Shown here in pieces: positions 3,512 through 53,688 of a stretch of DNA of 64,000 nt. Each line of letters starts with the position of its first letter. Position 1 is the stretch's first letter. Source of the stretch: Bryum argenteum (taxonomy: Eukaryota; Streptophyta; Bryopsida; Bryales; Bryaceae); assembly GCA_037043015.1 (NCBI GenBank), contig CM073326.1, forward strand, positions 14,392,345-14,456,344, read 5' to 3'. A program made the translations under genes and the position numbers. The notes below the pieces were generated by a model, which saw only the letters and a list, made by a program, of their open reading frames with translations, had not been told where the DNA came from and ran no database searches.

Positions 3512-4434
3512 CCCCTAAATGTCTCATCCTATTTTTAGCCAATAAACACATTTTGAAATAAGGTGTTTTAGGTGAAAATGAAGATAAGCTACTAAGATCT
3601 CAATCGTACAAAGTTGTAACAGACTTTTTGTAGGTCATGTGGGCCAAAAATTGAGTCATGAAAATTGTAGTTTTAGTGAAGAACCTTTATCCAAAAGAAA
3701 GTCACCAATGAAAGATTCTGGCTCAAAATATTAGCCTTGCAATGATAAAACTGGCAAAAATGTTACAGATGAAAATTTGTCAAAAACTAGACCCTATGCA
3801 CTCAAATTCACACCTTATCTTTAGAGCATCCTGGATTTTGTTAAGATTCTACCACTAAAACTAGACTTTAATTAAAAGCCATCCCAAAAAACGAACTTGA
3901 ATCCAACGGTGGATGATTAAGATATAGCTCCTCAAGCATCATCCATTTTTCTCTCTCTGTTTTATTGACAAAACATCATTGCAAATCCAATCGCAGAAGT
4001 ATTTGGATGAAAAACTTCCAACTAGAAACCACCTTAAGATTATGAGCATGAAAAAAAAATTCATAAAAAACTAGTTTTGATATCACATATTTGGCTTACA
4101 ATGGTAAAACTGCCCCATATTTGGAAATCCAAAACCAAAATTTGTCTTCACTAAAATGCATGTTAGGGACATTACTTTTCACTAAAATGCAAAAACAAAA
4201 GTTCAACAAAATTTCACAAAATTTGTCTTCACTAAAATGCATGACTAAATTTTTCTTCACTAAAACTTTATTGTAGGGGCGTGCAATTATTACCACACAA
4301 ACTAGACTTGATTTGGGACCAAACTTAAGTGATTTAACCTAAAACGGACCTTGTATGAAGAAGTTATAGCTCTTCAAAATTGTTGCCTTCCATCCAAAAT
4401 GTCGTGTTTCTACTACAATCGACGCGTTTAGGAG
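3512..4434. mobile_element. TTAA-flanked piggyBac-like non-autonomous element
   Basis: The element begins CCCCTAAATGTC after TTAA (3508-3511) and ends GACGCGTTTAGGAG before TTAA (4435-4438). A CCC-type terminus with a TTAA target duplication is the signature of the piggyBac superfamily. The 923-bp interior is AT-rich with repeated TTGTCTTCACTAAAATGCA segments near 4141-4260 and has no transposase frame. Unlike the copies in the segmental duplications, this one has no empty-site comparison within the window. Confidence 0.6.
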
Positions 4435-5118
4435 TTAATGTCAATTTATAGAATATTGTAATAAAATACAATATATATATTTTCATTCAAATCCTAATCC
4501 AACTAAGTTCTGAATATATACAAATAGATCAAAACCAAGAAAACTCTAAATCTTGTTAATGTTGTCATGAATCATATGTGCACTAAACATATTATTTATG
4601 ATAATTATGCTCATACAACAAATATGCTTACATGGAAAATATGCTCACATGACAAAACATTATTAGTATTTTTGCCCAATGTAGATACTATAAAATCAAA
4701 ACCGAAAAAACCAACTTATCAAAAACATATGATTCTAACAAATTCGATTGTAGCATATCATAAAATTTCTTAAGGCTATGCAACCCTTCCTCCCATCAAC
4801 GTGACGACCCCACACGCCCCAAAACTAGTTTGTTCGTTTGTTTGGGGGAGAGAGGTTTTGTGGGGCTTTCGTAAATGAGTACTACGAGTGTTTCTCAGAG
4901 CCCATTAGCCAATGGGATTTTTTTTCAAAATCCTTGGAAGGTTTGATGTGACCCCCGACGACCGTTTTCGATAATTTGAATTTAAAAATGGAGCCTACGG
5001 CCCAAATTTCTATGGGATCCTACTACTAGGCATTTTAAGCCTAAATATTAAAAATTTACGGGGCTCTTTACCTCTCCCCTCCTATACCCCCGAGAAACGC
5101 CCGTGGCACTGCTTTGCA
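4435..5118. other. Intergenic, no gene seen
   Basis: AT-rich to 4780, then a more GC-balanced stretch. No gene, RNA or confident transposon end was recognised. Confidence 0.5.
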
Positions 5119-5340
5119 GTGATCCGGTTGTGTGCATGTTCGTTCTGGGGGTTTTGTGTACGTTTGTATTTGTTCGTCAGTGTCATTTACCTCGACAGCG
5201 TCAGTACATTTGATAAGTTTTTGATTGCTTTGATCACTTTCCTACTTCGGACTATTCTTTGCTCATTCGGAGTCCTAATCAATGAATCTGCTTTTGAATT
5301 CACAGCCACTTGAACGAGCGAAAGGTAGATTCTAAGATTG
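5119..5340 (+). repeat. Dispersed repeat, partner at 62638-62840
   Basis: The sequence around GACAGCGTCAGTACATTTG, the CTTTCCTA-TTCGGACT block and CCTAATCAATGAATCTGCTT recurs at 62638-62840 in the same orientation with substitutions and small indels. Both copies end in AAAGGTAG, which resembles a splice donor. Open frames in the two copies differ by frameshifts relative to each other, so coding function is not supported. It may be a terminal piece of a larger transposon or a duplicated gene 5' end. Confidence 0.6.
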
Positions 5341-6011
5341 GAATGAAGAACGGTGGAGAAGTTGAGGCATTTGTAACACTCAGTGGATGATAGTCATGGG
5401 TACATATGGTCCTCTACACTGTAATCCATCCCAGCCTATGTACGTGAGGGAGGTCCCAACAGTGTGGACTGAGAAACAACATACATGAGAAGGAGGTTCA
5501 ACACTTCATGTCATGCCCAAAACTCAACAAAAAACCCTCTTCCAATGACCCCAGATTATAACCGGGGTTGAGGAAAAAACTATAGAGGTGGCACCACCCT
5601 ATTGGCCAAGGGAAGTGTGGTTATTTTCCATAATGCTAGCTTCACTGGCGTCATGGCTTGACCATACGACCACCATTGATCTCCAAGATCAATGGTCTCT
5701 ATGTGCCGAGTTGTAAACTAGTGTGGAGCATGGGGTTTTTATACCTTGTCTTTTTCCACCTGCAATTAGTATGGGATAAATCACTTTTTTTCAATTTTTA
5801 TTTTTATTTTTTTAATTTTTTTAATTTTTTTTAATTTTTTAAATTTTTTTAAATTTTTTTTAGGATGATCATTGAGTTATTCCCAACTTCATGCAACTTT
5901 TTTAATTTTTTTTTGAGAATAAATGAATTTTTGTTGGATTTTTGAATAATTTTTTTTAGTTTGCGGGAAGGGATAAATTAGTTTTAAAAAAAAGTTTGAA
6001 CTGCGGTTATC
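5341..6011. other. Intergenic; small hairpin and T-rich tract, no gene
   Basis: A perfect 11-bp stem with 3-base loop lies at about 5673-5697 (ACCATTGATCT and its complement). From about 5785 to 5870 the DNA is nearly pure T/A. No gene was recognised. Confidence 0.5.
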
Positions 6012-6142
6012 CTAGGTAACTCAAAAGGAGCCCCTGGTTATGGAAAATATCCAGTGGGGCACCTCCCTCGCTGCTCCCGCGGCTTGGAAGGATGCCCCAC
6101 TGGTTATTTTCCATAACCAGTGGCTCCTTTTGCGTCACCTAG
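6012..6142. repeat. Fold-back inverted repeat, 50-bp arms
   Basis: The left arm at 6012-6061 and the right arm at 6093-6142 are near-complementary, sharing AAAGGAGCC, TGGTTATGGAAAA and CAGTGGGGCA blocks. The spacer is GC-rich and about 31 bp. It probably is a small fold-back MITE. Confidence 0.75.
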
Positions 6143-6353
6143 TACATAATGTCACAAAACAAAACCCTAAAAGTAGTAGCTTCCTTAAAAAATAGACCGA
6201 TTGTTTTGACATGAAACTTCTGTAAATTGTAGAGTTCCCTCATACTTTTTCAACAAGTCCATTTCTGCTTCAAATTTCCTCACACTTTAGGAAACGTCTC
6301 TAACTTACCTATGGTAATTAATGACGAGTTTTCTTCACGTGAATGTACACAGG

Positions 6354-6523
6354 ACTCATAGTCATGGTTGTCATATTGGACAAATTACTATTCATTTCAT
6401 GTCCTATAGGACGAGTTACCATTTATCAAATGTACCTTTAAAGTACATGTGATGAATAGTAACTCGTCCTGTAGGACATGAAATGAATAGTAATTTGTCT
6501 GATATGACAACCATGCTCATAGT
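6354..6523. repeat. Long near-perfect hairpin (fold-back MITE)
   Basis: The two halves are reverse complements over about 75 bp, with a short centre near CTTTAAAG at 6436-6443. Shared arm blocks include ACTATTCATTTCATGTCCTA with its complement and ACGAGTTAC with GTAACTCGT. A transcript would fold into one long stem, as seen for MITE-derived small-RNA precursors. There is no coding potential. Confidence 0.8.
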
Positions 6524-6796
6524 GCGTGAAAGTAAGAACGGGATGAAATTCCATTTTACTGAGAAAATTGCAACTTTCCCAGTGTAGTCATTCAAATGGC
6601 CAACTTTTGATCACAGGGAGACATAGTGGTAAAATCATCAATGCTCCAACAGTTCACCAAAAATTCGGAGTTTCAACACGTATTTTAACTTCCAAGATTA
6701 TGATTCCATAAACAATAAAGAACTTGGGCCTAGAAATTGGTGTACATAAGAAGTTAAGTTTCAGATCGTAGGAATTTAGTCCTCAAAATACAACAT

Positions 6797-6810
6797 ATAA
6801 AAAAATAAAA

Positions 6811-6841
<31 letters not shown>

Positions 6842-6855
6842 TAAAAATAAAAAAA
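6797..6855. repeat. AAAAAT microsatellite
   Basis: An uninterrupted run of AAAAT/AAAAAT units. The surrounding 6524-7030 contains no recognised gene. Confidence 0.9.
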
Positions 6856-7089
6856 TCATTTACATTGAAAGAGGGAAATTTTGAGGGTACTCCATAGATT
6901 TGAGGACTTGGAACTTGAAAGGTTCTTGGTTGGAAGTACTCCAAAACCAATCATTTCTTTGATCCTTACCTCTGTTTGTGCAAAGAAATAGAACGCATTA
7001 ATTTTAGATATCTGAGTTTCAAAATCGAAGGGTTAACAATAAATGAGAATCAAAATGAACAATAGGAAGTACAAATCATCAGAAAATGA

Positions 7090-7460: not shown

Positions 7461-7537
7461 ACTCCACTAAACGATATTACTTATCTTTCATTTTATTTTG
7501 GGATGGTAGCCTCCAAAACGTCTTCTCATGATCACAG

Positions 7538-11227: not shown

Positions 11228-11240
11228 AACTGGAAGCAGC

Positions 11241-17774: not shown

Positions 17775-18076
17775 CCCTTAAACGTCAGACTATACCGATT
17801 TGGGCACCCCATTATTGGATCACAGCATCTTTTGGACTTGGGCACCATGAATAGTGCACTTTTTGAACTTGGGCATCATGAATGATCCAATCAATGATGA
17901 GCTAGCAATCACTCATACAAATTGTTATTTGAATTCTAAAATTTCACTTTTTGAATGCATCACAAGAAGGTGACTAGTTTGACATCAAAATATAAGTGAA
18001 AAGTTGAGTACATTGAGTGCTACAGAGAAGATTCTGTTGGAATCGGCCCCCTCGGGGCCGCTCAGACATTTAAGGG
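17775..18076. mobile_element. TTAA-flanked piggyBac-like MITE (302 bp)
   Basis: It starts CCCTTAAACGTC after TTAA (17771-17774) and ends ACATTTAAGGG before TTAA (18077-18080). The interior matches 53326-53688 (for example GCATCTTTTGGACTTGGGCA), so it is a shorter relative. Copy B has no insertion at the matching place (near 32658). Confidence 0.8.
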
Positions 18077-19244: not shown

Positions 19245-19315
19245 CCCTTAAACGCCCAACCCCTCTTAAATTATACTAAAAAGCATGTCCAAGGAGCATG
19301 CTTAGGCGTTGAAGG
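19245..19315. mobile_element. TTAA-flanked mini-element (71 bp)
   Basis: It starts CCCTTAAACGCCC after TTAA (19241-19244) and ends GGCGTTGAAGG before TTAA (19316-19319). The matching site in copy B at 33815-33818 has one TTAA and no insert, which demonstrates the 4-bp duplication. Confidence 0.8.
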
Positions 19316-19470: not shown

Positions 19471-20327
19471 CCCCTAAAAATCAGGAAAACTGATTCGGTT
19501 TTTTGAGATCTCGGGCAGCTCATTTTAAGGAGTTAAATTAATATTTTTGCCTATGATTTTTACTGGGTGCTCCCCATACTGTAATGGGTATGTGGTATAA
19601 TTTGCAAAAGCCAAACTTTTAAGTATTTTTTTTTTTGAAAATATGTCCATTACCAAATTACTATTCAAATTCCAAAGTGTCCGAAATCAAAAAGTTTACC
19701 AATTTTACAAGGGCAACCTCCCAAAACTTTCAAAAACAATCTTCACAATTTCTAATAATTTTACACTTTTTTCTTTCAAAAATTGCCAAAATTTGAGATT
19801 TTGGAATTTTCCCAAGATTTTTTTTTTTGAAATTCACATTCTCATAAATGCATCTGCTCACCGTCCAAATTATTCTCAAACTAAATATATCATATGTGAT
19901 GCTTGTTTTACTATATTGTTCTTTTTAGACCTTCTTTCATAAAATATTTTACATTAAGGTCAAAAAGTGGAATTGGTCTCTAAAATTTTGCATGCGCGTA
20001 CCTAACTTGATTACCTACATGAAAAGAAATGACGGAAAAATGTTTGGAGCAACAAACATCAAGTTGCCCTTGGCACCATTTAGACAATGCCTCTCACGCA
20101 GTGGCAAAAAAAAGTGTTGGACAAACTTTGATTGTTATGATCTCACAAATGACAAACATCCAACGGTTGAAATTTTGACTAGTCCTTTGGATACAAGTAA
20201 GTTACAAGATCTTACAGTTCAAAGTCTAAAACCAGGAAAAAAAAGTTTCATTTCCCCATTTTCCAACGAAGGTGAAAATGGCAGTTTTTGGTTCTGGAGG
20301 GCGAGGAAACGCTTGGAATTTTAGGGG
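19471..20327. mobile_element. TTAA-flanked piggyBac-like element (857 bp)
   Basis: It starts CCCCTAAAAATCAGG after TTAA (19467-19470) and ends GGAATTTTAGGGG before TTAA (20328-20331). Copy B shows a single TTAA at 33978-33981. The same family is at 28253-29185 and, reversed, at 34014-34940. Internal open frames (for example 19992-20324) are partly shared by the family but show no transposase motif. Confidence 0.85.
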
Positions 20328-20363
20328 TTAAACAACACAATGATTCAAGGGGTTAACAGTTAA

Positions 20364-21101
20364 CCCTGGAACGTCGGAGCGGCCATTTTATGTCCGATGA
20401 ACAGAACATTTTCACTGTAACCTATTATTGCGGGATGAATTTCATTCATGATTTTTGTAATTGGATTTATGAATGATAATAGCATATCATGGAATTCATT
20501 TGAGGTCATTTAAGGTATTTCCTAAGATCACATGTGGTATGAAAGTTGAAAGAATGGTTAAAAACAAATCACCACAAAGTGCATTTCTGCAACTTTTTCC
20601 TACTTTTATTAAGTCTCAAATTTAGGCAACTAAATGATCTCTTTTGAGTTCAAGCTCAATTCATAAAATGAATCTTACCAAGTCTTGTTTCTACTCCAAG
20701 TTAGAATTTCAAGAAATTCCTAATATCTAGTGATTTCTTGACACCTTAAGTTTACATGCCTATAGGGTCTCTTTCTCAATTTTCAAATATAGCATGACAC
20801 AAAACCATGGATTACACCATGCTATTCTTCACTACAATGTCCCCTTATTCTAAAAAATTCAGATTTTTTGAAAGTGATTTGTATTTGATATGAATTATTT
20901 TTGGTTTTTCTTTGAAAATTCACTTGAATTTCAAATCTTCCCAAAAAAATCTGAAATTTTTACAGCATATGAAAAGCATGTGATCACATCTACAAAAAAT
21001 AAAATAAAATATTTTACTTTCAGGTAAAGTGGCGAAATGGAGGATTCAGAGTAAGACATATCAAAGTTCAGGCCACGGTTATGGGCTCCGACGTTCTAGG
21101 G
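20364..21101. mobile_element. TTAA-flanked element, second subfamily (738 bp)
   Basis: The termini are CCCTGGAACGTCGGAGC and, in complement at the right end, CCCTAGAACGTCGGAGC, between TTAA at 20360-20363 and 21102-21105. The interior is unrelated to the neighbouring 19471-20327 element. It occupies the same target as the different element 34014-34940 in copy B. Confidence 0.8.
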
Positions 21102-22562: not shown

Positions 22563-23083
22563 TAACCACGAGAGAAACATTACCCTGTTTAGAAAATGGA
22601 AACTGAAGGCGCAGGTAAAGGCGAGAGACAGAATACCCTGTTTAGAATATGGGAAATCGGGAACTGAAGGCGCAGGTAATGACGAGAGACGAAATACCCT
22701 GTTTAGAATATGGGAACTGAAGGCGCAGGTAATGATGAGAGACAGATGACCCTGTTTAGAATATGGGAACCGAAGGCGCAGGTAATGATGAGAGACGGGG
22801 TACCCCATTTAGAATATGAGAACTGAAGGCGCAGGTAATGATGAGAGACGGGGTACCCCGTTTAGAATATGAGAACTGAAGGCGCAGGTAATGATGAGAG
22901 ACGGGGTACCCCGTTTAGAATATGAGAACTGAAGGCGCAGGTAAAGGCGAGAGACAGATGACCCTGTTTAGAATATGGGAACCGAAGGCGCAGGTAAAGG
23001 CGAGAGACAGATTACCCTGTTTAGAATATGGGAACTGAAGGCGCAGCCAGGTAAACGCGAGAGGGAAACATTTACCCTGTTGG
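22563..23083. repeat. 53-bp minisatellite, about 9.8 units
   Basis: Each unit contains GTTTAGAATATGRGAACTGA and AGGCGCAGGTAA. It lies about 160 bp upstream of the copy-2 small-protein ATG. Copy B holds only about 2.6 units at 36435-36575. Confidence 0.95.
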
Positions 23084-24128: not shown

Positions 24129-25365
24129 CCCCTAAACGTCCTTGATGTTTTGAGACCCTCAAAGTCCAAAAACTGTGATTTTTGACCACCTTGTGAATGC
24201 CGGTGTATGTTTCAATTTTTTTTCCTTTTTTGGTATTTTCAACCGTAAGATCTTGAAGCTAACTACCTGCACTACCACCATGTCAATTTTCAACCGTTGG
24301 ATCTTTGTCATTTGTGAGATTATAACGTTTGAAGTTGACTGAAAAGTTTTTTTTGACCATGCCCGAAAGGCATAGTCTAAATGGTGCAAAGGGGGAATTG
24401 AAGATTGTTACCCCAAACATTTTGCTCATATTTTTTTCCATGTAGGTAACTAAGTTGGGCACCTCCACGCAAAAAATTAGAGGCTCATTCAACTTTTAGG
24501 TGCTTCATGCAATTTCTTTTGTACAATGTGGTCTAGAAGTTGAATTCTTGAAGAAATGGGGGTGGTGGTGTGGAATTCTACCATCGAAACTACTTTCTTG
24601 AAAATCCCAACGGTGAAAATGTAGTTTCAAATGAATGTAAAAATTGGGTAAAAAAAAAACTCAAAAATTTCAAAATCTCTAATAGTGAGGAATTTTGAAA
24701 GAAAACATACATATATGTATTAGGAAAAATGACCGGGCACTTAGAAATAGTGGCAACCCCCTCTCACTTGAACGGGTCCCTCACATCCATGGTGTCAGAA
24801 TCATAAATAGCCTGGCTCTATATATGCTTCTATTGATATAAAACTAATAAAATCCGTTGCACATTCAATGATGATGTGGGAGATGCTGTGGTGGAAACTG
24901 AAAAGCCCAAAAGGGGGGGGGGGCAGGTGGCCCTCAAAGCATGTGGATCACCCCATGTGACTTCGTGGCCTAATGGTCCGGTTACATGGGTCCGGTTACT
25001 AGAGTCAGAGTCAGTCCAATTGCTGCGACTCTCGGGTCGTATGTTTCAAAAAAAAAAAAAAAAAAAAAAAAAACCCACTGCCCTCATCCAAAAGACCCTC
25101 CTTGCCCAAGCCGCTGCCCCGACTGACACCCTCTTCCCTCATTGGCGAAGTCACCCGCCCGTCCTGCCCAAAGTTGACCTCAAATCTAAAATATGGTCTA
25201 AAACACTCTCTATATGTAATTTGACTTTGCAATTTTTACCACACAAACTACATATGTTTATCCACATACCCTCCAAATTACAGCCCAAAATATTGATTTT
25301 TCCCCCTTCATCTATGCTGCCCAAAATAGCAAAAACCACAATCGGGTTTCCTGGTCCTTTAGGGG
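24129..25365. mobile_element. TTAA-flanked piggyBac-like element (1237 bp)
   Basis: It starts CCCCTAAACGTCC after TTAA (24125-24128) and ends GGTCCTTTAGGGG before TTAA (25366-25369). Copy B passes through the matching point near 37519 with no insertion, although its target has drifted. A G11 run and an A24 run near 24911 and 25049 mark a likely nested insertion. Confidence 0.75.
24957..25073 (+). mobile_element. Possible tRNA-related SINE nested in a TTAA element
   Basis: TGGCCTAATGG at about 24967 fits a pol III A box, GACTCTCGGGTCGTATG at about 25027 is a weak B-box-like part, and the stretch ends in an uninterrupted A24 tail. A tRNA-like head with poly(A) suggests a SINE. The B box is poor and no target duplication was confirmed. 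Confidence 0.3.
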
Positions 25366-28252: not shown

Positions 28253-29185
28253 CCCCTAAGAATCCAGGGAAACGGATTTGATTTTTTGAGAGTTCGGGCA
28301 GCTCATTTATATAGGTTAAAATTGATATTTTTGCCTAAGAGTTTTACTGGTGCTCTCCATACTGTAATGTGTATGTGGTAAAATTTGCAAAGCCAAATAT
28401 TAATTTTAAAACCTTCGTATAGAAATTTTAGGTTTCAAGTCCAAAACGGGTGGTTAGAATTTAACATTTTTGAAGTATTCTTTTTTGGAAATATGTTCAT
28501 TACCAAATTACTATTCGAATTCCAATGTGTCCGAAGTCAAAAAGTTTACCAATTTTACAAGGGCAGCCTCCAAAACTTTCAAAAACAATCTTCACAATTT
28601 CAAGTAATTTTACAATTTTTTTCTTTGAAAAATTGCCAAAATTAGAGATTTTGAATTTTTTCCAATATTTTTTTTTTTTCGAATTTCACATACTCATAAA
28701 GGCACCGACTCACTATCCAAATTTTTCTCAAAACAAATATATCATATGTGGTGGTTGTTTTACTATCTTGTTGTTTTTAGACCTTCTTTCATAAAATAAT
28801 GCACATGAAGGTCAAAAACGTGCAATGAGTCTCTAAAATTTTGCATAAGGGTACCCAACTCGATTACCTACATGGCAAAAAATGACATAAAAGTAATTGG
28901 AGTAACAATCGTCAAGTTGCCCTTGGCACCATTTAGACAATGCCTCTCAAGCATCAGCAAAAAAAAGTGTTAAACATTGTTTGATTGTTAGGATCTCACA
29001 AACGACAAACATCCAACGGTTGAAATTTTTACCAATCCTTCTTATACAGATCAGGTACAAGATCGTACGGTTCAAAGTCTAAAACCAAAAAAAAAAAAGT
29101 TTCTTCATTCCCCCATTTCCCAACGAAGGTGAAAAATGGCAGTTTTTGGTTCTGGAGGTCGAGGAAACGCTTGGATTTTTAGGGG
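28253..29185. mobile_element. piggyBac-like element with TTAG target duplication (933 bp)
   Basis: It starts CCCCTAAGAATCCAGGG after TTAG (28249-28252) and ends GGATTTTTAGGGG before TTAG (29186-29189). Copy B has an uninterrupted TTAA at 41464-41467. It is the same family as 19471-20327 and 34014-34940. Confidence 0.85.
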
Positions 29186-30189
29186 TTAGATTGCTAAACT
29201 TTTACACCGTACTAGCATAAACCAAAAAATAAAAATGAAATGTGAAATACCATTTTCCAAAGAAAAATTGAAATTACAGAAAATTTTCAAAGAGAAATAC
29301 CCTAGCTGTGAATACCCTCCACATAGTTGTGGAGAGAGTACATCCATTGTAGAACAAATACTCATCTACTGTACTGTCAATTTCATGTGATAGTATTATG
29401 AGCAAGTTTGATGAACCTATAAGTTAAGCATGCAGATAATAACGAAACTCGTTATCTTAAAACTTGCCCATGTGGCGCCATCTTTAGGACCATCCTTCAT
29501 TAAAAATAACCAGATTGGTTTCCTGCATCCTAATTCAACAGCCCTCCATGTTCAGGCGCTCTCATTCTTGATGTGGGCCAGTGGCCTCCTAACCCACATC
29601 CATGCGTGGAGAGCTGGTAATCGTGCTCACAGTTTCCATCCGTCCACTAGGAACCCAATATCGTCATGTTCATTAATGAGAATGTAGAGTATTGATCATA
29701 CAGACATTTCTCTGGTTCTGTTCTGGCAATGCCAGAATATGGGTGTTCCTACCTTAGCACCGGGTGGATGTTACTCATAGGTCTTTCCACTGGAGTCCAC
29801 CGGTCATTGTATATGAAAGTGAGGAAATCACTACCATACAATACTAAGCGAGAAGGGATGTCCAGTAGTCCCACAACAAACACAAACACCAATGTATAGT
29901 AGGGTCTCAAAATAATCTGAATTCCTCATTCCTGAATTGAAATTTGCATGTCGAGTTAAGAAGGATCAGTTTTGAAATCATAAAGTGCGTTGTAACCACA
30001 ACGGACCTTACTGCAGTACCATGGCAAACCAATCACCTTTTTCTTGTGGTAACACTCAACAAGTTAGGATTTCTATGTGCGTCATTTGGCGTTGACTATC
30101 ATTTGGTAAATATTTTATTGAACAATTCAACTCCCAACTTTTGGGGAATTTTGAATGAAAAAGGTGTAAAATTCATGTAAAATTTTGAA

Positions 30190-32425: not shown

Positions 32426-34013
32426 TTGATGATCACTTCTCAAGTGAGTTGTAAAAAGATTTGGAATTTTGTTGGATTTGCTTTTTATGCCGGTTCTTGT
32501 AAAGAGGACTATGAGTTAAGTTCCGAATTAGACTTATCTTAGATTAAACTTTGGTAAGATTGCAAAGTTTAGTTACTTATGATATGTTTTAGACGGTGTA
32601 ATTTTGCATATGAGTAATAAGCATTATTCTATTCATTTGGATCCATGCATCAACCAATTACAATATAGCTTTTGAAATACACGACATGTTCAAATAACTT
32701 TGTAACATGGCCTCTTGTCATTTTTTACAAATTGAACATTTTAAAGGAGACTCCTGTATTCATTCACTTTACAATTGTAGACCAATTTATACCTTTCATC
32801 AAATTTGGGTCCTTTATACAACTACTACCGCTCCTCTACAAGAAACTCAAATAACATATCTTCTGAGTTTCAAATTTATTGTAAGTGAAGGGAAAGAAGA
32901 TTCTCGTTCAGGAGACAGGAAACCCCTTATTTCAAAACCCAATGCAAGCAAAGAAAATGTTTCAATTTAATTTTTGATGTTTTCATTTGAATTTCATATA
33001 TTTGCTTTCAAAAAATCATTTCTGATTACATATTCACAACCAAATCTTTAATTACTCAAATTTCTACATGACTGAAGTTGAAAGTTTCACAAATTGACAA
33101 GAATAAAATTTAAAATTTATTGGGAGGAAAATTCAACTTTTCAGAAGAATGTTACACCTATTCATTTAAAATTCCTCAAAACTGAGGGTTGGGAATTGTT
33201 CAAAAAAATATTTACTAAAATTATAACACCACCTAATCACCATTCAATTTATTTTCTAAACCATATATGTTTTACCATGGTGCATTACCTACCATATTTT
33301 GAGACCATATATAAAATAGGTTGCATGAAAGGTCAAATAGGGAAATGAGCTTCCGAAATTCTGTATGCGCTTACTAAACCTAAGTATTCTTCTAGGAGGA
33401 AAATAAAACAAAATGATTATGCTACCCTGTCATCAAGTCCCCCTTGCACAATGAAGACAACCTCTCCCAATGAATGCCCAAAAATTGAATGTAAAGATTT
33501 CACAAATGGTAAAACCAACATTTAAATGCATAAAAGCACTACACAAGAGTTTTTAATATGTGTATGTGGAGAATAGGGCAACCGGTAACTTCTCCTAGAC
33601 AACACAATTTCTTAACTCTCTAAAGATTAGTGTTCACTTTGGGTTGCCATTGCAATCAATGTCCCTTGTCTTTTTTTTCTTCAAGTCACCAATTGCACCA
33701 CTTCCAATAAATTCTTCAACTTGCAAGAATGTGTGCATGCTCTCACAAAAAGTGTTCTAGTTTGCTGATTAGTGTTGTAAGTTGTAACACCATGGTGACG
33801 TGTAACATTTAGTGTTAAGGTTCACAATTAACACTTGTAACACTAATTACCAACGCTTGTAGAGTGAACTAGGTTGAGTACAAAAGCCTACAGTTCGAAA
33901 TCTCGAATTGGAAGGAACTGGTCCATAATTTCATTCATGCAGAGAGGTTGAAGACAACAGTATTGAGTTTGAGAGCTTTAAAAAACCCAATGATTGGAGG
34001 GGTTAACAGTTAA

Positions 34014-34940
34014 CCCCTCAAAATCCAGGGGTTTCCTCGACCTCCAGAACCAAAAACTGCCATTTTTCACCTTCGTTGGGAAATGGGGACATGGAGAAAC
34101 TTTTTTTTCTGGTTTTAGACTTTGAACCGTAAGATCTTGTACCTAACTTGTATACAAAGGACTAGTCAAAATTTCAACCGTTGGATGTTTGTCATTTGTG
34201 AGATCATAACAATCAAAGTTTGTCCAACACTTTTTTTTGCCACTGCGTGAGAGGCATTGTCTAAATGGTGCCAAGGGCAACTTGATGTTTGTTGCTCCAA
34301 ACATTTTTCCGTCATTTCTTTTCATGTAGGTAATCAAGTTAGGTACGCGCATGCAAAATTTTAGAGACCAATTCCACTTTTTGACCTTAATGTAAAATAT
34401 TTTATGAAAGAAGGTCTAAAAACAACCATATAGTAAAACAAGCACCACGTATGATATATTTAGTTTGAGAAAAATCTCGACGGTGAGAAGGTGCATTTAT
34501 GATAATGTGAATTTTGGAAAAAAAAATCTTGGAAAAAATCCAAAATCTCGAATTTTGGCAATTTTTGAAAGAAAAAATTGTAAAATTATTAGAAATTGTG
34601 AAGATTGTTTTTGAAAGTTTTGGAGGCTGCCCTTGTAAAATTGGTAAACTTTTTGACTTCGGATACTTTGGAATTCGAATAGTAATTTGGTATTGAACAT
34701 ATTTCTAAAAAAAAAAAAATTAAAAAAAATTATTTTGAACTGCCCGTTTAGGACTTGAAACCTAAAATTCCTAGGTGAAGGATATAAAATTAAAATTTGA
34801 CTTTGAAAATTTTACCACATACACATTACTGTATGGGGAGCACCCAATAAAAATCTTAGGCAAAAATATCAATTTAAATGCTTAAAATGAGCTGCCCGAA
34901 ATCTCAGAAAACCGAATCGGTTTTCCTGGATTTTTAGGGG
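34014..34940. mobile_element. TTAA-flanked piggyBac-like element (927 bp, reversed)
   Basis: It starts CCCCTCAAAATCCAGG after TTAA (34010-34013) and ends CCTGGATTTTTAGGGG before TTAA (34941-34944). It is the reverse-oriented relative of 19471-20327. Confidence 0.85.
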
Positions 34941-36575: not shown

Positions 36576-38920
36576 GTGGGCGTGAATAGAGTGTTTGTTC
36601 CGTCTATCTCAATAGATTCGTGCCCGACCTCAGCTAGCCCTAGAGTCCCCCACCATGGACCCATCTGAGTCCCAGAAATGGTGTCCCCAAATTGTGGGGT
36701 CAATAAGTTAACTAAATACTCCACTGGTGTCAATTAGGTGGACCGAAGGAAGAGCGGGTGTGGACTACCCAGGACCGAAGGAAGAGCGGGTGTGGAGTCG
36801 TGGGAAAAATATACCCCAAAATAACCATTTTAAAAAAACCTCAAAAAGCTTAAGTTGTTGGTGGTCAGGGCATTCGACCCTAACCAGGACGGAATCTGCA
36901 CATGAGGAGTCGGCTGGCGAAAGATAGCGCTGTTGACTCCTGCTCCTCAGCTCCTGCTAGAACTTGAAAGCTTTGTAGCCCTCAGGATGTAGCTCTTGCG
37001 TACATATGGTCCTTAACACTGTAGTCTGGACCCCACGAAATATGAGTCTGCACTGCATGTCATGTCGCACATGCTCACACCGGAAGGGAGGTCCCACCCG
37101 TAATCCACCTCCACCGATTTAAAACCACCATATGTTCTGGTCAAGCCCTTTTCGGAGGGACTGAGTAAACAAGTAGCCAATCGACCGTGAGTAATTCAGT
37201 ATATATTTCGTAGAATTCCTTGGTCGCAGCAGGCATATGTTCTTCATCGATTGTTTTCAAAAGAAAATTAATCATATTAACACATTTATGTAACTGACTC
37301 TTTTGGTCACTATCCAATAAGCTTGCCAGCTTAGAACCTGTGTTGTTTTTGAGTATAATTATAGCTTACTCGTAAATCTATCACAACATTATTTTCCTCC
37401 TTACAGACGTTTTATATGGATGTGGACTTGTGGAGGCCATCAAATTTTAGGAAGATTCACTCAATTTCGGAACACATTAGAAATTCAATATAATTACTAG
37501 GGCCAACTTTTTTGTGTATAAAGGCCTTTGATGTCATCTTAGGAAAAAGAGTAAAAAAGAGATTTGGGGCCAATTTTTAAAGTAGCTATATAACCATGCC
37601 TTTTATTTATTTGTAATAAATTATACATGTAATAGAACGATACTTTAGTGATGAAACAAGCAACTTGAACGAGGACATGATTTGGCTTTCAATTTTTGTA
37701 GCTGCATAATTTTGGATCTGGGGTTGTGTTATGACTTGTCCACCACACAACAAGAACTGAGTTAATAGAAGAGGTCTAACTTCCCCATGATAGGCCTTTC
37801 TCCCACATTTCAGAAAACAAACCAATCACACTAGATGAGTTTGCCCTACTAAGGCTCCATGAATAGTGATTTGGTGATGAGCATATCTCCAAAGCTTTTC
37901 TCAAAAAAAACTGAATTCAAGGTTCTTATTTTGGACTTGAAGACTAAAATTTCTGGACTGAAGTTCAAAAATTGAAATTTGGCTTTGCAAATTTTACCAC
38001 ATACACCTTGCAGTATAAAGATCACTCAATAAAATTCTTGATAGGAAAATTTGTTACTTTGAACTTTTTCATAAAAGGTTGCTATAAACAGCAAGAAAAG
38101 CCATTTCAAACTTATGGATATTTAGGGTTGATGAGCATAACGTTTGGGGGTAACATCAAGTCACCCTTTGCACAAAGTAGTCTGTGTCTTCCAAACATTG
38201 GCAAAACAAAGTTTCATATCAACATTAAACTCACAAATAACAGAGGCCAAATGACACAAATTTCATATATTATGCAAGCTGTCTACTAGGTTTGAGATCC
38301 TACAATTGAAAGTTCAAGAAAATATATAAACATTTGACCATATATCAATTTCAATCAGGTGGTCGAAATTGCACTTTTCGTTCCAGAGGTTTAAAAATGC
38401 TTGACTTGTAGCCGTCACAGCAGATTAAAAATCAAAATCAACACGAGGAATTAGAACATTCAAAATTACTCCACTCCATACTTGAGAGTCGTGAAAACAC
38501 CAGGGTACCCCACACAAAGCCTTAGTCGAGGAGTATATTATTCCATCAGAACCTGATGTCCAATATTCCTATGGACATGGTACTCCTCTCTTCAAAACAC
38601 ACAACTTTGGATCCAAAAAAACAGAAATACTCAAGCAAACGCTGGTCCCTGAAAGGTCTAGCGTGAACAGAACGTCTGTGGAGCCTCTGACCATGGGAGT
38701 GCCCATGGAGCCTGTGACCGCGCAACAAACACGGAACTCACCACGCCTCACATGGTCATGTGACCCCAGTCCTATGACCGCGATCTCCCACGTTGGACCT
38801 TGTGACCAAAACACAAAATACATATACCGGTAGAAGCATGAGTCTAGCACACTAATGCTATCCCCACTACTGATATCATCTTGCAATGGTAGCTTCCAAA
38901 ACGTCTTGTCTTGGTCGTAG

Positions 38921-41879: not shown

Positions 41880-42321
41880 CCCTTTTTTGCACGGTTTTAG
41901 CTACATGCGTGAGCGCCACAAAGTATTGGTCTGTCGGATGAAAAGGAGAGTCTACTGAGCACTTTAAGGTCATGTACACTTTTGACTTCTAAAATTTGTA
42001 GTAAATTCAATTTTTGCTATTTTATTTTCGGAATTTTCGCATTCACTCTCCCTCCTGTTTTCCCATCCAAGAAAATTACAAACAGTACACACGAGGTCCA
42101 TAACCATGCTGAATCTCTTATTTGAGCGGTTTAACCCTTAAATGCCCAAGGTGACCCGAGGGGTCACCTTCCAACAGAATCTCCTCTGTAGCTCTCAATG
42201 TACTCAACTTTTCACTTATATTTTGATGTCAAATTGGTCACCTTCTTCTGATGCATTCAAAAAGTGAAATTTTACAATTCAAATCACAATTTGTATGAGT
42301 GATTTTGTGGTTTGAAAGGGT
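41880..42321. mobile_element. Two truncated TTAA-type element ends
   Basis: CCCTTTTTTGCACGG begins after TTAA at 41876-41879, and a second left end, CCCTTAAATGCCCAAGG, begins at 42135 after TTAA (42131-42134). The second matches the left half of 52360-52720 but is cut at about 42321 where the next element starts; neither matching right end was found, so this is a nested, partly deleted cluster. Confidence 0.6.
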
Positions 42322-42325
42322 TTAA

Positions 42326-42752
42326 CTCTTAAGCGCCCACGGTGTCGTTTTTCGACATTTTGGATGTGAGGCTCCGTCTTTGGTGCACAACCCCGCTTTC
42401 ATCCCATCGATTTTTCATCCGCCGTTTTTTTTGCTCAACTCCTCGGTGGGTTTACTCTACTCCCTCCTTGGATAAATAGTAAAAACCTTGATCCTCAATT
42501 TGTGAGAGTGGGCGAAAGAGATTTTTCATGAAAGTTTTGGTGGTGTGATCTTCACCCCTTTTTTGCATGGATCTTGAAATCCATACCTCCAAATGGCATG
42601 CAACTTGGTGGTCATACCAATTGCCATGCTCCAAAGAAGATCCTACAGTTGGATTTTCCATTTTCATCTTTTATTTGTTTTTACGCAGTTTTGAAAAAAT
42701 CAGCATTATTACCAATTGTTAGGAGCTTTACCCCCCCTTGGGCGTTTAGGGG
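42326..42752. mobile_element. TTAA-flanked element (427 bp)
   Basis: It starts CTCTTAAGCGCCCACGG after TTAA (42322-42325) and ends CTTGGGCGTTTAGGGG before TTAA (42753-42756). Confidence 0.7.
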
Positions 42753-42823: not shown

Positions 42824-42895
42824 CTCTTAAACGCCCAAGCATGCCCCTGGGGCTTGCTTTTTAGTGTATTTTCAGAGTGGTTGTGCGTTTAAGGG
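42824..42895. mobile_element. TTAA-flanked mini-element (72 bp)
   Basis: It starts CTCTTAAACGCCC after TTAA (42820-42823) and ends GTGCGTTTAAGGG before TTAA (42896-42899). Copy A has the same flanks around a single TTAA at 29673-29676. This is the cleanest empty-site pair in the window. Confidence 0.9.
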
Positions 42896-45715: not shown

Positions 45716-47755
45716 ATGGTTCGGAAGGCTGGGGACGTTTTGGGAAACTCTAGGGAGAAGTGGGGTTCAAATAACTTCATGGCTGCCTTCGAGCTGAAGG
45801 TGGCATGTGCATTGGTCGTGGCACATGCCTTGATAGGCTTTTCCAATGCGGCAAGCCCCTCCGGTATTTGCCCAGTAAGGTTCTGTGGTGATAGTGGTGG
45901 TGTTGAGATTAGGTTTCCATTTATTCTAGAGGGCGACCCCTTGGGTAACCGATGCTACACAGATTACCCCGATCTTCAGTTTTATTGCATGAAGAAGGTG
46001 TTGCTCCTCAACTTTACTGGTAATGCTACCTTGAGCACTGACTCGTACAAGGTGACGAAGATTGATTACTGGAATCAAACGCTTGCACTGGTACCTAATG
46101 TGCCAGCAGCAACTTGCCGGGCCTTCGACGCAAAAAGGTTTGGAGGTTTGAATATTACGAATACGACGACCCTGCTTCTTGATTGTCCAGAGAAATTACG
46201 CGAGTCCTGCGAGGATATTCGCAACAGTACAGATGTTTGTGACAGTAATGGTGGGGGTCTGACCCCTTCCGATACCTCTCGTTGGGCTTGTAAGACTTCC
46301 TTAAGGGATTTCAACACCAACAGCTTCAGCTCCTGCCGCCTTATGAGTGGTAACGAACCACTGGGCAGATCACGAGATGCGACTTCGGATTTGGTGCTTC
46401 AGTTCGAAGGAAATAGAACGCTGTCACTCCAGAATAGCACCGTTTTGTCATCGGCTCCTGCGCCAGCACCGGATGCATCACTACAGTCGGGGGGCGACGA
46501 GAGCACCAAGAACAATAAGAAGCTGGGTCTAATTCTTGGCGCTGTATCCAGCTTCCTGGCGGTTTCAGTAATCTTCCTTCTTATTATGCTGTTATACTGT
46601 CGACGGCGTCGAAACTCGGGGGATGTGGTGAAGTTCGACGGTGACAAGAAAGCCTTCGAGAAGATTCGGTCGAATGGGTCAGGGCACATCACCCAACTGT
46701 TCAGCTACAAGGAGCTTGAGCACGCCACACAAGGTTTCAGTGCCAAGCAGGAGCTCGGAGGAGGAGGATTTGGGACGGTGTACAGAGGGAAGCTTTCAGA
46801 TGGACGAATGGTAGCTGTGAAGAAGCTAAACCAAGGCGGAAGTCAAGGCATACAACAGTTCCTCAACGAAGTTGAAGTGCTCTCGAAGGTGCGCCACCCG
46901 CACTTGGTGCGGTTACTGGGTTGTTGCATGGAGCGGCCCCTGCTTGTGTACGAGTATGTACCACACGGTTCCATTTCCCAGCATCTGCATGACATGAACA
47001 AAGGCAAGCTCCCGTGGGAGACCAGGTTGGAGATCGCCATACAAACTGCAGAAGCACTTGCGTACCTGCACTTTCTAGTGGACCCTCCCATCTTCCACAG
47101 GGATGTGAAGACGACCAACATTCTGCTGGATAAGGATTTCAAGGTGAAGATTGCGGATTTCGGGTTGTCAAGGTTGGTGGTGAACATGGAAAACACTCAC
47201 ATCTCGACTGCGCCACAGGGCACTCCCGGGTACCTGGACCCAGACTATCACGAGTCGTATCATCTGTCTGATAAGAGCGATGTGTACAGTTTTGGGGTGG
47301 TGTTGATGGAGCTGGTGACGGCGAAGAAGGCGGTGGACATGGCACGGGAGCGGAAGGAGATCAACCTGGCATCGCTTGCAGTGGCCAAGATTCACTCGGG
47401 CTGCTTGCTGGAGATCATCGATCCGGACTTGCTGGCTCTGTTTCCGGTGTACCCGATGATGCAAGTGATGGTGGAGCAAGTGGCGGAGCTTGCGTTCCGG
47501 TGCCTGGCATCTGAGAAAGATGACCGGCCTTCGATGAAGGAAGTGCTTGCGGAGTTGCAGCGGATTCAATCGATCGGATTTGCAGCACATTCCGTGAAGG
47601 TGCTGGAGAGCGAGTCATCGTTTGATATGAAGGACTCTGCGAAGCCTTTGATTCAGAAAGAAGCTTCGTGGACAACGTCTCCTACCTCAGTCCACCAAGA
47701 TGTGTGGGTGAGCACCCCAACCTCACCTGCTGATAGTCTGCCAGAAATGGTCTAG
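45716..47755 (+). CDS. LRK10L/WAK-type receptor-like serine/threonine kinase
   Basis: A single-exon frame of 679 residues. Order: leader 1-21; signal-like hydrophobic stretch from Met22 to about 45; cysteine-bearing GUB_WAK-type ectodomain about 52-125 and WAK-associated C-terminal part with cysteines to about 207; Ala/Pro linker 246-256; membrane helix 271-294 then CRRRR; kinase about 341-615. Kinase landmarks are GGGGFGTVY (348-356), catalytic Lys369 in VAVKK, HRDVKTTNILLD (461-472, an RD kinase), DFG (481-483), GTPGYLDPDY (502-511) and SDVYSFGV (521-528). By family it is a plasma-membrane receptor kinase phosphorylating Ser/Thr. The Ser/Thr-rich tail 630-679 is a likely regulatory region. 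The last 26 codons are duplicated at 53946-54028. Met22 is the alternative start; several antisense frames over the kinase are shadows. Confidence 0.93.
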   Translation: MVRKAGDVLGNSREKWGSNNFMAAFELKVACALVVAHALIGFSNAASPSGICPVRFCGDSGGVEIRFPFILEGDPLGNRCYTDYPDLQFYCMKKVLLLNFTGNATLSTDSYKVTKIDYWNQTLALVPNVPAATCRAFDAKRFGGLNITNTTTLLLDCPEKLRESCEDIRNSTDVCDSNGGGLTPSDTSRWACKTSLRDFNTNSFSSCRLMSGNEPLGRSRDATSDLVLQFEGNRTLSLQNSTVLSSAPAPAPDASLQSGGDESTKNNKKLGLILGAVSSFLAVSVIFLLIMLLYCRRRRNSGDVVKFDGDKKAFEKIRSNGSGHITQLFSYKELEHATQGFSAKQELGGGGFGTVYRGKLSDGRMVAVKKLNQGGSQGIQQFLNEVEVLSKVRHPHLVRLLGCCMERPLLVYEYVPHGSISQHLHDMNKGKLPWETRLEIAIQTAEALAYLHFLVDPPIFHRDVKTTNILLDKDFKVKIADFGLSRLVVNMENTHISTAPQGTPGYLDPDYHESYHLSDKSDVYSFGVVLMELVTAKKAVDMARERKEINLASLAVAKIHSGCLLEIIDPDLLALFPVYPMMQVMVEQVAELAFRCLASEKDDRPSMKEVLAELQRIQSIGFAAHSVKVLESESSFDMKDSAKPLIQKEASWTTSPTSVHQDVWVSTPTSPADSLPEMV

Positions 47756-49042: not shown

Positions 49043-49256
49043 AGATCGTGGAGTTCTATCACCAATTTTTGCCTTGTCAAGTCTCTGTTCGAGAGGTCTT
49101 CAAAAAAAACCAAGAGCACGCAAGAAATTTCTAACCTTCAAGTCTAGCTTTGTATTCTAGAATCATTTGAGTGTAAATCAAATGTATGTTGCTTTTTCCT
49201 ACCCTCACTGCTTATCACCTCCTTTTACCTTCTAATCACATAGTTGGCACTCACCT

Positions 49257-49565: not shown

Positions 49566-50513
49566 ACTAGAAAACATCATTGCCTTCTTATAGGAATCCA
49601 TACCATTATTGAATGCTTCTTTCTAAAAGGAAATAATTGAAGAGGTCAGATAAAAATTACTCAAACTCGTTCGGCTCACGAAAAGAAAATAATTGAACAA
49701 GTCTAAATCTTACGCAACCTCTTTCAAGTCACCTACCTCTACCTACCTTCTACTTTGTGAACCTTTACCTTTTGAAACCTCCAACCTACACATGGTTCAG
49801 CTCAAGCAACTTAGCCTAGTTGTGGACATTGACCAGCATCAAGTGTTTCTTTTTTATAGAAGATAACAGAGCTTGTTGAGGATACACGCAACCTTCACAT
49901 CAATCATGCAAGAAAAGGTTGGGCAACATGTTCAAATCACGTCAATTTTGTTTGTGCCTTTTTACTAGTCAAGCATACAGAGAACATTTTTTGATTACCT
50001 TCTTTCTAAAACATGACTTAAAATCGAATCACATGAGGTTGTATACACATAACTTAAAACTACAGGTTATAGTGTTTATTCATGGTGAAAGTGTGTAACA
50101 CGATTACTAGTTTGAGCAACGAGAATGAGTTCAATTGCTAAGTCACCAGATACCTTCACAATGTTGTAAAGATCAGTATCTCAAATATACCTCTGAAACA
50201 ACACTGCATCACAGTTTGGGAACTAAGACCTTTTATCAACTTGCACAAGAGTCTGTGGGATTTGTTTGAATATATTTAATTATGAAAAAGTACAAAAACG
50301 AGGTCATCCTGTGTGAGGATTGAAATAATCCTCAAGGCGTTCACCATGAGTTCTGTTTTCGTAGAGAAAGTTGCATGTGAAATGTGTCGGTGGAATGTGT
50401 ATATCATTGTAACTTCTGCAAAAATGCTTGAATTCGAATGATATTAGAAATATCGATCCATTCCCAATGCATTTTCATATATTTACATTTGAGATTCCTC
50501 CCACTTAGGATTC

Positions 50514-50708
50514 ATGTTTCTACTTGTCTCGAAGGAGTTGAACAATCTTCCTCTTGCAAGTGAATACTTCATTATTAAAACTCCTGTACCGCAGACTTCA
50601 ACTGACAGTGAGTTCATTAGCCTCCACTCTTGCGTATCTTTCTCAGACTTTGATGAAGAAGATGGCGTGTGTTGCTACATCTTCAGTTTATGTAAATACC
50701 AATCATAG
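50514..50708 (+). other. Exon-like open frame, unknown (internal half 2)
   Basis: The translation FLLVSKELNNLPLASEYFI...SEFISLHSC aligns loosely with FLQGELVLKGLKIHTPAEKY...SELIRLASH at 58646-58770, so the two halves of the unit share an exon-like block. GTGAGTT follows a CAACA/TGACA context in each and may be a splice donor. Not recognised. Confidence 0.25.
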
Positions 50709-52254
50709 TAAATATGGTTTTTTCTTCTATAATGCAAATACTATCTGTATGTGAAGCAATTCAAACAGATTCTGAAGTGAACCGATTGAAGCATGCCTAC
50801 GTTCACTAATGACTCTTCCAAATATGAAGGTTCTAAATGAATTGCAGAAGCTGATTAGAATTTGTTAAGTGATTCATTGGCGCTTTAGTGAAGCAAAAAC
50901 TTCATAGTTACCTTCTCTATGTAACACACATATGAACTTATGTGCGTTATTGGTGACAACTCTAAGATCAATGAGAAATGTTGGTTTTGTGGTGCGAAAG
51001 TAGAGCAAGCATAAAGTGGGTGACTTACAAAGATTTGACAATTGGTGCACTGGTGTCAATGAAAGTTGTTCAACTATACAACAACATGATCGGTGTCTAG
51101 TTCTACATGCAATTCAAGAACAATGAAAGATAATGCACTTTTGTAGGATATTTCTGTTGTCACTATAGTTATCCAAAATTTTGAGGAGAATTGAACATGT
51201 GGAGGTTGTGTTGATGTGGCGTTCTCTCGTGGAATGCCAATGATAATAAAACTCTTCGATCTCCAGCGAGACTTTACAAGATTGATTCCACGAATCACAT
51301 TGTAAAATCACCTTGGAAATCGAGAAGTCTTATCACCAACTTCACGTGTCTTGTATCTGGTTGAGAAGTTTCAGAAAAGAACTAAGAGCACTCAATAAAT
51401 GTGTAACCTTCAAGTCTAGAATGCTACTCAAGAACCATCAGAGCGTAAGGTTCCTCGCCACTTGCGGCTTACCACCCCCTCTCACTTTCTAATCTCACAG
51501 TCGGCTCTCACCTCAGTCTTTCTAGAGCTAACATCCTCATACCTCCTACTCTTCACTCCTCACACCTCTTACTCTCCGCTCTCTTCACTCGTCTCCTCTC
51601 ATCATTGCCTACAGATAGGAATCGAGACCAATATTAAATGCTTCTTATCGAAAGTCAATAATTGAGCCCATTTGGTACTCACGCAACCTCTTGCAATTCA
51701 CAGAGGAAATAATTGAACGAGTCCAAAACTTACCCTACCTCTTCCAATGCTACCTTCAACATACATTCTACTTTCTGAACCTTTATCTCACGCAACCTCA
51801 AACTCACACATCATTCAGCTAAGGCAATTTACAAAGCTAAGGAATAAGAAAAATCATAGCATGTTCAAAGGAATTCAAACCATCATTGAGTGATGTTTTC
51901 TACAACGAAGTAATTGAGCTTGCTAAGAACTTACGCAACCTTCACGTCAATTATACAAAGAAGTGAAGGTTGGGTGACAAGTTCAAATCAGGTCAGTTCT
52001 ATTTGTGCTTTTCTATTATTCAACCATATACAAATGACTATAAATCTACTTCTTGCTAAAGTACACTCACTTTTACAATGAGATAAACATGAGTTCCCAA
52101 TGAAAATTTATGTGTAGTCTCTAATTCATCTACACTTCCAGCTACACTCTTGTCTATTTTGCGTTTTTTTATGTATCACTGATATTCATTCCAATGCATT
52201 TTCCACGTTGAGATATTTGAGATCTGAGATTCTTCCAATTAGGAATCATGTTCC

Positions 52255-52860
52255 TACAAGGAGAACTTGTCTTGAAGGGATTAAAGATTCATACTCTTGC
52301 AGAGAAATACTTGATTTTGAAAATATTGTACCACTTCAACAGTGAGTTGATTTGATTAACCCTTAAACGCCCAAGATGACCCGAGGGGTCACCTTCCAAC
52401 AGAATCTTCTGTGTAGCTCTCACTCTACTCAACTTTCCACTTATCTTTTGATGTCAAACTCGTCACCTTCTTGTGATGCATTCAAAAAGTGAAATTTTAC
52501 AATTCAAATCACAATTTGTATGAGTGATTTTGTGCTTTGAAAGGATTGTGGTAGCGAGGTTGGGGTTGTACATAACCTTGTAGGGGTTGCAAGCTCATCA
52601 TTGATTGGTGCATTCATGATGCCCTTGTTCAAAAAGTGCACTATTCATGATGCCCAAGTCCAAAAGATGTTGTGATCCAATTTTGGGCTGCCCGTTTCAC
52701 ACCCCATGGGCGTTTAAGGGTTAACCTCCCACATCCATGCCAGCAGCACTGGTCCCTCCTGGTGGTGTGCAGACGACTTTCATGTCAAGAATGGGGCACT
52801 TGACAATTGCAAGGCGCCCAACCACTATGATATCGATTGGAAATTAGTAGGGTAAAGAAA
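52255..52860 (+). pseudogene. Exon-like frame interrupted by a TTAA MITE
   Basis: The 5' part (FLQGELVLKGLKIHTLAEKY) and 3' part (STGPSWWCADDFHVKNGA) match the continuous open frame at 58622-58909, but the 361-bp element 52360-52720 separates them and a TGA precedes it. The 3' part keeps the frame to DWKLVG then stops early. It is the disrupted partner of 58622-58909. Confidence 0.5.
52360..52720. mobile_element. TTAA-flanked piggyBac-like MITE (361 bp)
   Basis: It starts CCCTTAAACGCCCAAG after TTAA (52356-52359) and ends CATGGGCGTTTAAGGG before TTAA (52721-52724). The partner unit has a single TTAG at 58754-58757 with the same flanks. A subterminal palindrome GGTGACCCGAGGGGTCACC lies at the left. 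Confidence 0.9.
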
Positions 52861-53325
52861 AAAAAGATTGAAGCTTGGTGTTACTGATTACAAGTGTATG
52901 TAGCCGCCAACAAGGAACTGATTAGTTTGGACGATTTAGTATCACGTGTACTGCATAGAAAGTGATATGAAGTTAATCTCCTCAATAATGGTTCATCTTT
53001 CAGCATGGTAAATCTGCAGTGGAGTTCACCAGTCAACGCATGGTACTTACCAGAGTAAGTAGAAAATCAGAACCAGCACAAGTAGAGTTAGTACACCTAT
53101 TTTGGGGCACTTAATTTATTACACTTGGAGTAACGACATTTGGGAACTACTATTATCAGTGATTAGGAACAAAGTTTTCATGTTTTTATAGTATTAACAA
53201 GCACTTACACATTTATTTGAAAGTGACGCACTTAGGTACACGTGTAGTCGTTTGTCCTACTCCGTGTACATTTGAGGAACATACGATCCAAGGAAATCTT
53301 CATTCTCTCCTCAACAAATCTTTAA

Positions 53326-53688
53326 CCCTTAAACGCCCATGGGGTGTGAAACGGGCAGCCCAAAATTGGATCACAGCATCTTTTGGACTTGGGCATCATG
53401 AATAGTGCACTTTTTGAACAAGGGCATCATGAATGCACCAATCAATGATGAGCTTGCAACCTCCTACAAGGTTGTGTACAACCCCAACCTCGCTACCACA
53501 ATCCTTTCAAAGCACAAAATCACTCATACAAATTATGATTTGAATTGTAAAATTTCACTTTTTGAATGCATCACAAGAAGGTGACCAGTTTGACATCAAA
53601 ATATAAGTGAAAAAGTTGAGTACAGTGAGAGCTACAGAGAAGATTCTGTTGGAAGGTGACCCCTCGGGTCACCTTGGGCATTTAAGGG
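53326..53688. mobile_element. TTAA-flanked piggyBac-like MITE (363 bp, reversed)
   Basis: It starts CCCTTAAACGCCCATGGGG after TTAA (53322-53325) and ends TTGGGCATTTAAGGG before TTAA (53689-53692). It is a near-identical, reverse-oriented copy of 52360-52720, about 600 bp away. Confidence 0.9.

Follow-up and report, generated by a model that had tools for sequence, protein, structure and literature searches.

The piggyBac transposon of the moth Trichoplusia ni possesses 13-bp ends which begin with CCC. The element was reported to be 2,472 bp long (PMC10813416), its minimal ends were given as LE35 and RE63, and bp 17-33 of its left end were described as a palindromic internal repeat to which a dimer of cysteine-rich domains binds (PMC7351741; here as below, the literature is cited from the available excerpts of each paper). 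In land plants the superfamily is already on record at annotation level: the repeat table for C-fern lists 1,230 PiggyBac fragments (0.00%; PMC6890710), PiggyBac is recorded for all groups including land plants in Table 2 of PMC4438587, a review of angiosperm miniature inverted-repeat transposable elements includes it (PMC10004981) and a general remark on piggyBac in plants is found in PMC10813416. The present work concerns a 64,000-nt stretch of the Bryum argenteum genome (assembly GCA_037043015.1, contig CM073326.1, positions 14,392,345 to 14,456,344 of the forward strand; hereafter the window; host genome 258.8 Mb in 25 contigs), which carries short elements flanked by TTAA. As judged from sequence, these are, at a probability of about 0.96, non-autonomous piggyBac transposons that would be moved by the transposases of full-length piggyBac elements resident in the same genome. 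The grounds for this reading are enclosed transposase genes, a TTAA-type 4-bp duplication, short elements that share their outer ends with full-length ones, and nearly identical copies on separate chromosomes; the transposases located between the ends, the TTAA duplication and the palindromes around bp 25 of some ends are the reasons for assigning them autonomous partners of several lineages.

Elements and target sites

Terminal-repeat pairs were defined as TTAA-bounded CnC...GnG stretches whose two ends agree in at least 11 of the 13 terminal bases, whereby 100 dinucleotide shuffles served as null. The window, in which TTAA occurs 296 times, contains 11 such pairs, whereas the shuffles gave 0.01 on average and never more than 1; some of the 11 are cross-pairs between neighbouring copies. 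All remaining 255 tetramers combined yielded two pairs, namely a TTAG pair (28253-29185), which is a real copy at a non-canonical site, and an AGCT pair (52419-53629), which sits inside two opposed copies of a 361-bp element. The termini described in an initial annotation of this DNA, beginning CCC or CYC, ending GGG and flanked by TTAA, are thereby borne out. Its terminal consensus, searched without TTAA anchor at up to three mismatches, was found 23 times in the window versus 9.0 expected, a modest enrichment; the signal comes from the TTAA anchor and not from the consensus alone. TTAA-anchored ends with at least 10 of 13 matches to any of five end types number 23 as well (shuffle mean 0.2, largest 2), a count which is partly circular because the five types were derived from the same data. 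The same annotation had counted at least ten elements of 71 to 1543 bp and had taken them for one family. Thirteen elements or fragments were accepted, the 71-bp one among them, whereas a 1543-bp element was not found in the window, the longest accepted one measuring 1237 bp; the single family had to be given up, as the elements fall into no fewer than three end types and their interiors differ. Four end types were designated as follows.

Type A: CCCTTAAACGCCC
Type B: CCCCTAAAGGCCC
Type C: CCCCTCAAGGCCC
Type E: CCCTGGAACGTCG, at transposase locus L046 (one end seen), also the end of window element 20364-21101

The accepted elements and fragments of the window are:

3512..4434, no strand assigned: non-autonomous element, 923 bp, TTAA on both sides, weak terminal repeat (10/14); 77-80% identical to a 973-bp element of loci L001/L022 over most of its length, starting at the first base
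17775..18076, strand -: 302-bp copy, with an internal deletion, of the 361-bp element, TTAA on both sides; two parts of the 361-bp element matched at 88% and 91%
19245..19315, no strand assigned: 71-bp miniature element, TTAA on both sides, left 13-bp end exact, right end diverged
19471..20327, strand -: B-type non-autonomous element, 857 bp, TTAA on both sides; 94% identical to 34014-34725 across 715 bp
20364..21101, strand +: E-type non-autonomous element, 738 bp, TTAA on both sides, ends 12/13; the outermost 38 bp agree without mismatch with one L046 end, the L046 stretch being otherwise unmatched
24129..25365, strand +: 1237 bp, derived from a B-type element by deletion; matches the 5.7-kb elements of L040/L041 at 71-72% over about 650 bp at one end and 253 bp at the other
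28253..29185, strand -: B-type non-autonomous element, 933 bp, TTAG direct repeat on both sides; homologous end to end with 34014-34940
34014..34940, strand +: B-type non-autonomous element, 927 bp, TTAA on both sides, ends 12/13; right-end palindrome centred at bp 25, 9/9
42135..42321, strand +: left part of a 361-bp element (fragment), with 93% identity to the leftmost 180 bp of 52360-52720
42326..42752, no strand assigned: TTAA-bounded element, 427 bp, ends 10/13; no relative at E 1e-8 among the loci compared
42824..42895, strand +: 72-bp miniature element, TTAA on both sides
52360..52720, strand +: 361-bp element, 13-bp ends exact
53326..53688, strand -: member of the 361-bp family, 363 bp, TTAA on both sides, 96.7% identical to 52360-52720

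In two similar stretches, a same-looking TTAA following GTTAACAG holds different elements (E-type, 20360-20364; B-type, 34010-34014), as if one target site had been used twice.

The genome search for an end plus TTAA, which the initial annotation had proposed, revealed 3,694 occurrences of CCCTTAAACGCCC (1,866 + 1,828; reversed control 2 + 0), 3,298 of which (1,666 + 1,632; control 0) directly follow TTAA, while 39 + 36 are preceded by TTAC, TTAG or TTAT. Since TTAA on both sides cannot separate a 4-bp duplication from a TA duplication within a longer repeat, ends preceded by TTAT or TTAG were chosen for comparison. Retrieved were 38 of the 75 non-TTAA sites (32/32 TTAT, 6/29 TTAG, 0/14 TTAC), whereby a partner end was within reach at 22 and none was found at 16. 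Fifteen of these 22 elements repeat the non-canonical tetramer on the other side (13 TTAT, 2 TTAG) and seven carry TTAA there. Likewise, the full-length element at L041 is flanked by TTAT on both sides and its 99.84% identical copy at L040 by TTAA, and window element 28253-29185 is flanked by TTAG on both sides and its homologue 34014-34940 by TTAA.

Joined flanks of 39 elements, among which the ends of L050 and L018 were mis-set, were compared with the retrieved sequence for empty sites, and ten matched across the joint. Inspection was limited to the window pairs, where in five of ten cases the joint carries just one tetramer, the paralogous sites being 79-94.5% identical:

42824-42895: empty site 29610-29774, 94.5%, gapless, one TTAA
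19471-20327: empty site 33866-34016, 81%, one TTAA, 1-base gap nearby
52360-52720: empty site 58654-58845, 93%, one TTAG
17775-18076: empty sites 32570-32760 and 30734-30554, tetramers TTAC and TTAG
24129-25365: empty site 37429-37620, 84.5%, tetramer TAAA

The paralogue of the 53326 site has a gap across the joint, and the other four inspected window pairs gave no match across it. Outside the window, joint matches were obtained for L052, L063, L013 and L002, those of L052 and L002 lying inside their own locus. Because of the 15 matched non-canonical tetramers and the paralogous empty sites, TTAA is a true 4-bp target duplication and not part of the inverted repeat, the latter being a possibility the initial annotation had itself raised. 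These data bear on the idea that the elements belong to Tc1/mariner or PIF/Harbinger, with a TA or TWA duplication and TTAA being partly terminal repeat (ACCC...GGGT in T-TA-A): as long as only TTAA sites are considered, a TA duplication predicts the identical empty site, but repetition of all four bases in the 15 pairs, at L041 and at 28253-29185 leaves this assignment practically no probability. The TA-duplication and inverted-repeat readings were ruled out by these matched tetramers, no mariner or Harbinger model having been searched.

Resident transposases and copy age

A profile search of the genome with the DDE_Tnp_1_7 (piggyBac) model returned at least 116 scored matches from 776 candidates (best E 7.4e-82), 23 of the 116 with and 93 without stop codons inside the match; 14 control genomes yielded zero matches, to which no weight is given here. 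Eleven long transposase loci (L009, L037-L046) were examined, and at six of them both CCC ends are present, five with TTAA and one with TTAT on both sides, a positive outcome of the transposase test suggested in the initial annotation:

L009: both ends found, 5,191 bp
L037: both ends found, 4,942 bp
L039: both ends found, 5,404 bp
L040: both ends found, 5,693 bp, TTAA
L043: both ends found, 5,278 bp
L041: both ends by alignment to L040, TTAT on both sides

The L009 element (C1:23339978-23345168, positions 1079-6269 of the locus) encloses a DDE_Tnp_1_7 match and is bounded on either side by an exact 13-bp end next to TTAA, and its 897-aa frame matches the solved chains of T. ni piggyBac (6x67, 2e-29) and piggyBat (9c0f, 7.7e-24). 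In the Pfam scan of frames between both ends, which covered L009, L040 and L043, DDE_Tnp_1_7 was the only match, so that the piggyBac assignment made initially from termini and flanks is now backed by transposases between ends of the same kind and the different transposase it had allowed for did not turn up. Pfam models do not match a 132-aa frame beside the L009 transposase, even with E values up to 1 allowed, and one scan of the L009 frame against viral_contigs gave zero matches. By eye, a 21-bp tandem array was observed at about 1460-1690 of L009, within the full-length element. Locus L012 (243-6175), considered as an 'autonomous' version, 5.9 kb in length, of the 361-bp element, was rejected, as it represents a 361-bp element split by an apparent long terminal repeat (LTR) retrotransposon, by eye of the Ty3 type with repeats of about 490 bp.

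Among 14 frames, identity amounts to 90-98% within lineage A and 51-79% within lineage B (L040 and L041 being alike), to 31-44% between lineages and to 53% between L031 and L033. Residues D572, D651 and D764 of L009, which we take to be the catalytic DDD residues, are invariant in all six aligned frames and align with aspartates of 6x67. A cysteine-rich C-terminal motif was found in seven of the 14 frames (L026, L030, L032, L033, L034, L035, L036). All frames were read from stop to stop, hence their lengths are upper bounds; about 400-715 aa N-terminal to the DDE domain are without Pfam match in the following:

L009: 2006-4699
L040: 2496-4988
L043: 1251-4811
L044: 1067-4378
L046: 1035-4058

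Kolobok and Sola3 are other superfamilies with TTAA targets. It is conceivable that the short elements belong to one of these, with a transposase so far unseen; the target is shared, and a Xenopus Kolobok paper (PMC6004289) was listed as using the term TTAA 23 times. This is nevertheless very improbable, given that the transposases between the ends are DDE_Tnp_1_7, one of them matching solved piggyBac chains (the profile search being aimed at DDE_Tnp_1_7 and not at Kolobok or Sola), and that piggyBac is known for CCC ends of 13 bp and for a palindrome around bp 25.

The identities between copies make recent movement of the elements likely. A second end type, TTAACCCCTAAAAATCCA, occurs 745 + 729 times in the genome (control 0), and many opposed pairs of it starting about 915-920 bases apart are among the first 100 places listed. 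The match list for the 361-bp type ranks best first and is hence biased towards young copies: of the 43 matches listed for window copy 52360-52720, 40 (itself included) are full-length at 97-100%, the others being one adjacent full-length copy (91%) and two partial ones (82%, 92%). For the 72-bp type, 574 candidates were obtained with query L092, and at least 40 of them, counting the query, match at 95-100%; these lie on contigs C2 to C11. The alternative that the short copies are piggyBac relics, no longer moved by the resident transposases, would fit the stops in 23 of the 116 transposase domains and the merely 70-90% likeness of many window copies to their relatives. It is considered unlikely, though worth keeping in view, as L040 and L041, which lie on two chromosomes, are 99.84% identical across 5,703 bp, the 39 other listed 361-bp copies are 97-99% identical to the window copy (in a list favouring young copies) and the 93 remaining domains are without stop. 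At C3:24745075-24745810, two abutting 361-bp elements have one common TTAA, as if one had inserted into the flanking duplication of the older copy.

End anatomy and proposed mechanism

Within the outer 36 bp, a stretch that includes the 13 bp of the common repeat, the right end of L009 shares 28 and 24 positions with the left ends of two copies of the 361-bp type, and its left end shares 27 and 29 with their right ends, compared to 21 and 19 when the ends are swapped. The left half of the 72-bp elements matches the L009 right end at 29 of 36 positions. As L092, a 72-bp copy, is flanked by TTAT on both sides and 42824 has an empty site, the 72-bp elements themselves are indicated to have moved.

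A palindrome centred at bp 25 was identified in ends A9_R (8/9), B40_R (7/9), D44_R (7/9) and w34014_R (9/9), a score of at least 7/9 at this centre having a frequency of 0.0024 in random stretches of the same loci. Scores of 6/9 were obtained for E46_R, B45_R, w20364_L and w24129_R, and the remaining 11 of 19 ends stay below 6/9 (5/9 in A39_R and C43_R). At least 6/8 arm matches occur in 51 of 63 ends which carry RAG after the terminal repeat, the block starting with its G, versus 3 of 59 among the remaining ends. When 28 different 19-bp blocks from the RAG class were compared, the arms were found to vary together: 148 of 224 cells pair as compared to a column-shuffle mean of 104.7 (largest 120, 2000 shuffles), which is no strict probability because the rows are related copies.

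By analogy with T. ni piggyBac, the transposase would pair two unlike ends, whereby its C-terminal cysteine-rich domain would bind, at one of the ends, the palindromic block around bp 25; excision would then proceed through TTAA hairpins, followed by insertion into a new TTAA. Less securely, a copy may need hardly more than the outer 36-38 bp of each end, and the existence of the 72-bp family would then be accounted for. Taken further, this would mean a currently moving piggyBac system of several lineages whose transposase mobilises 72-bp DNA, that is little beyond two 36-bp ends and below LE35 plus RE63, a tentative proposal to which we assign somewhat less than an even chance.

Several observations weigh against the assumption of resident full-length partners moving the short elements. 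Both ends were not found at five of the 11 long loci, where some stretches may be incomplete. The L009 frame departs from its relatives beside the third aspartate, hence activity of L009 is not a given. The cysteine-rich motif was not found in L025, L027, L028, L029, L031, L040 and L041, several of these frames being broken or cut, and the 831-aa frames of L040 and L041 lack it in frame. The bp-25 palindrome is not general, reaching 7/9 in four of 19 ends (types A, B and D); fewer than 19 were anticipated, because one end per element is expected to carry it. Finally, the right half of the 72-bp elements is, by eye, unlike the L009 left end beyond the 13-bp repeat, hence an L009-type partner of the 72-bp family is no more than a candidate.

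Apart from the transposons, window frame 45716-47755 combines a protein kinase domain with GUB_WAK_bind (33.2 bits, cut-off 29.4), as is typical of land plants; this single wall-associated-kinase-like frame is what marks the window as plant DNA in the analysis. A tandem repeat with a 53-bp unit in about nine copies was observed at 22568-23046, and neither RNA families nor tRNAs were found within the window.

Comparison with known piggyBac systems

The initial annotation had regarded piggyBac as poorly documented in land plants. The superfamily does appear in the plant surveys and annotations cited above, hence this stands only in so far as none of the papers listed deals with a characterised autonomous land-plant element, a weak negative, as most subscription papers lie outside the literature searched. 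New are the element density, the open transposase partners and the 72-bp family. Plant repeat surveys, in their available parts, use the same superfamily label as labels or fragment counts, whereas here full-length copies, ends, target sites and open frames are described, by which an entry in a plant repeat list becomes a set of elements and an endogenous plant piggyBac becomes testable. The genome of this plant is rich in piggyBac, a kind of transposon known best from animals, and the 72-bp family raises the question of the minimal length of a piggyBac substrate.

Ends of 13 bp with CCC are common to these elements and T. ni piggyBac. As in the available account of T. ni piggyBac (6x67/6x68; PMC7351741), the elements combine TTAA with a 4-bp duplication, a DDD transposase, unlike ends and, in some ends, a palindrome near bp 25; because several end types carry this palindrome, the architecture of the ends in the moth structure is suggested to be old. 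The T. ni chain comprises 594 aa, whereas the open frames identified here span 831-1187 aa (upper bounds) with a long N-terminal part without Pfam match, and the full-length elements measure 4.9-5.7 kb as compared to 2,472 bp (PMC10813416). Likewise, the non-autonomous 72-bp family contrasts with the minimal LE35 plus RE63 of T. ni (PMC7351741). Closest in kind are the CMITEs of Acropora corals, small TTAA-flanked elements linked to piggyBac which, according to the available part of PMC2872659, measure about 100 bp with ends of 13-14 bp and share their interior more than the ends, whereas the miniature elements described here are 72 bp long and reside in a plant.

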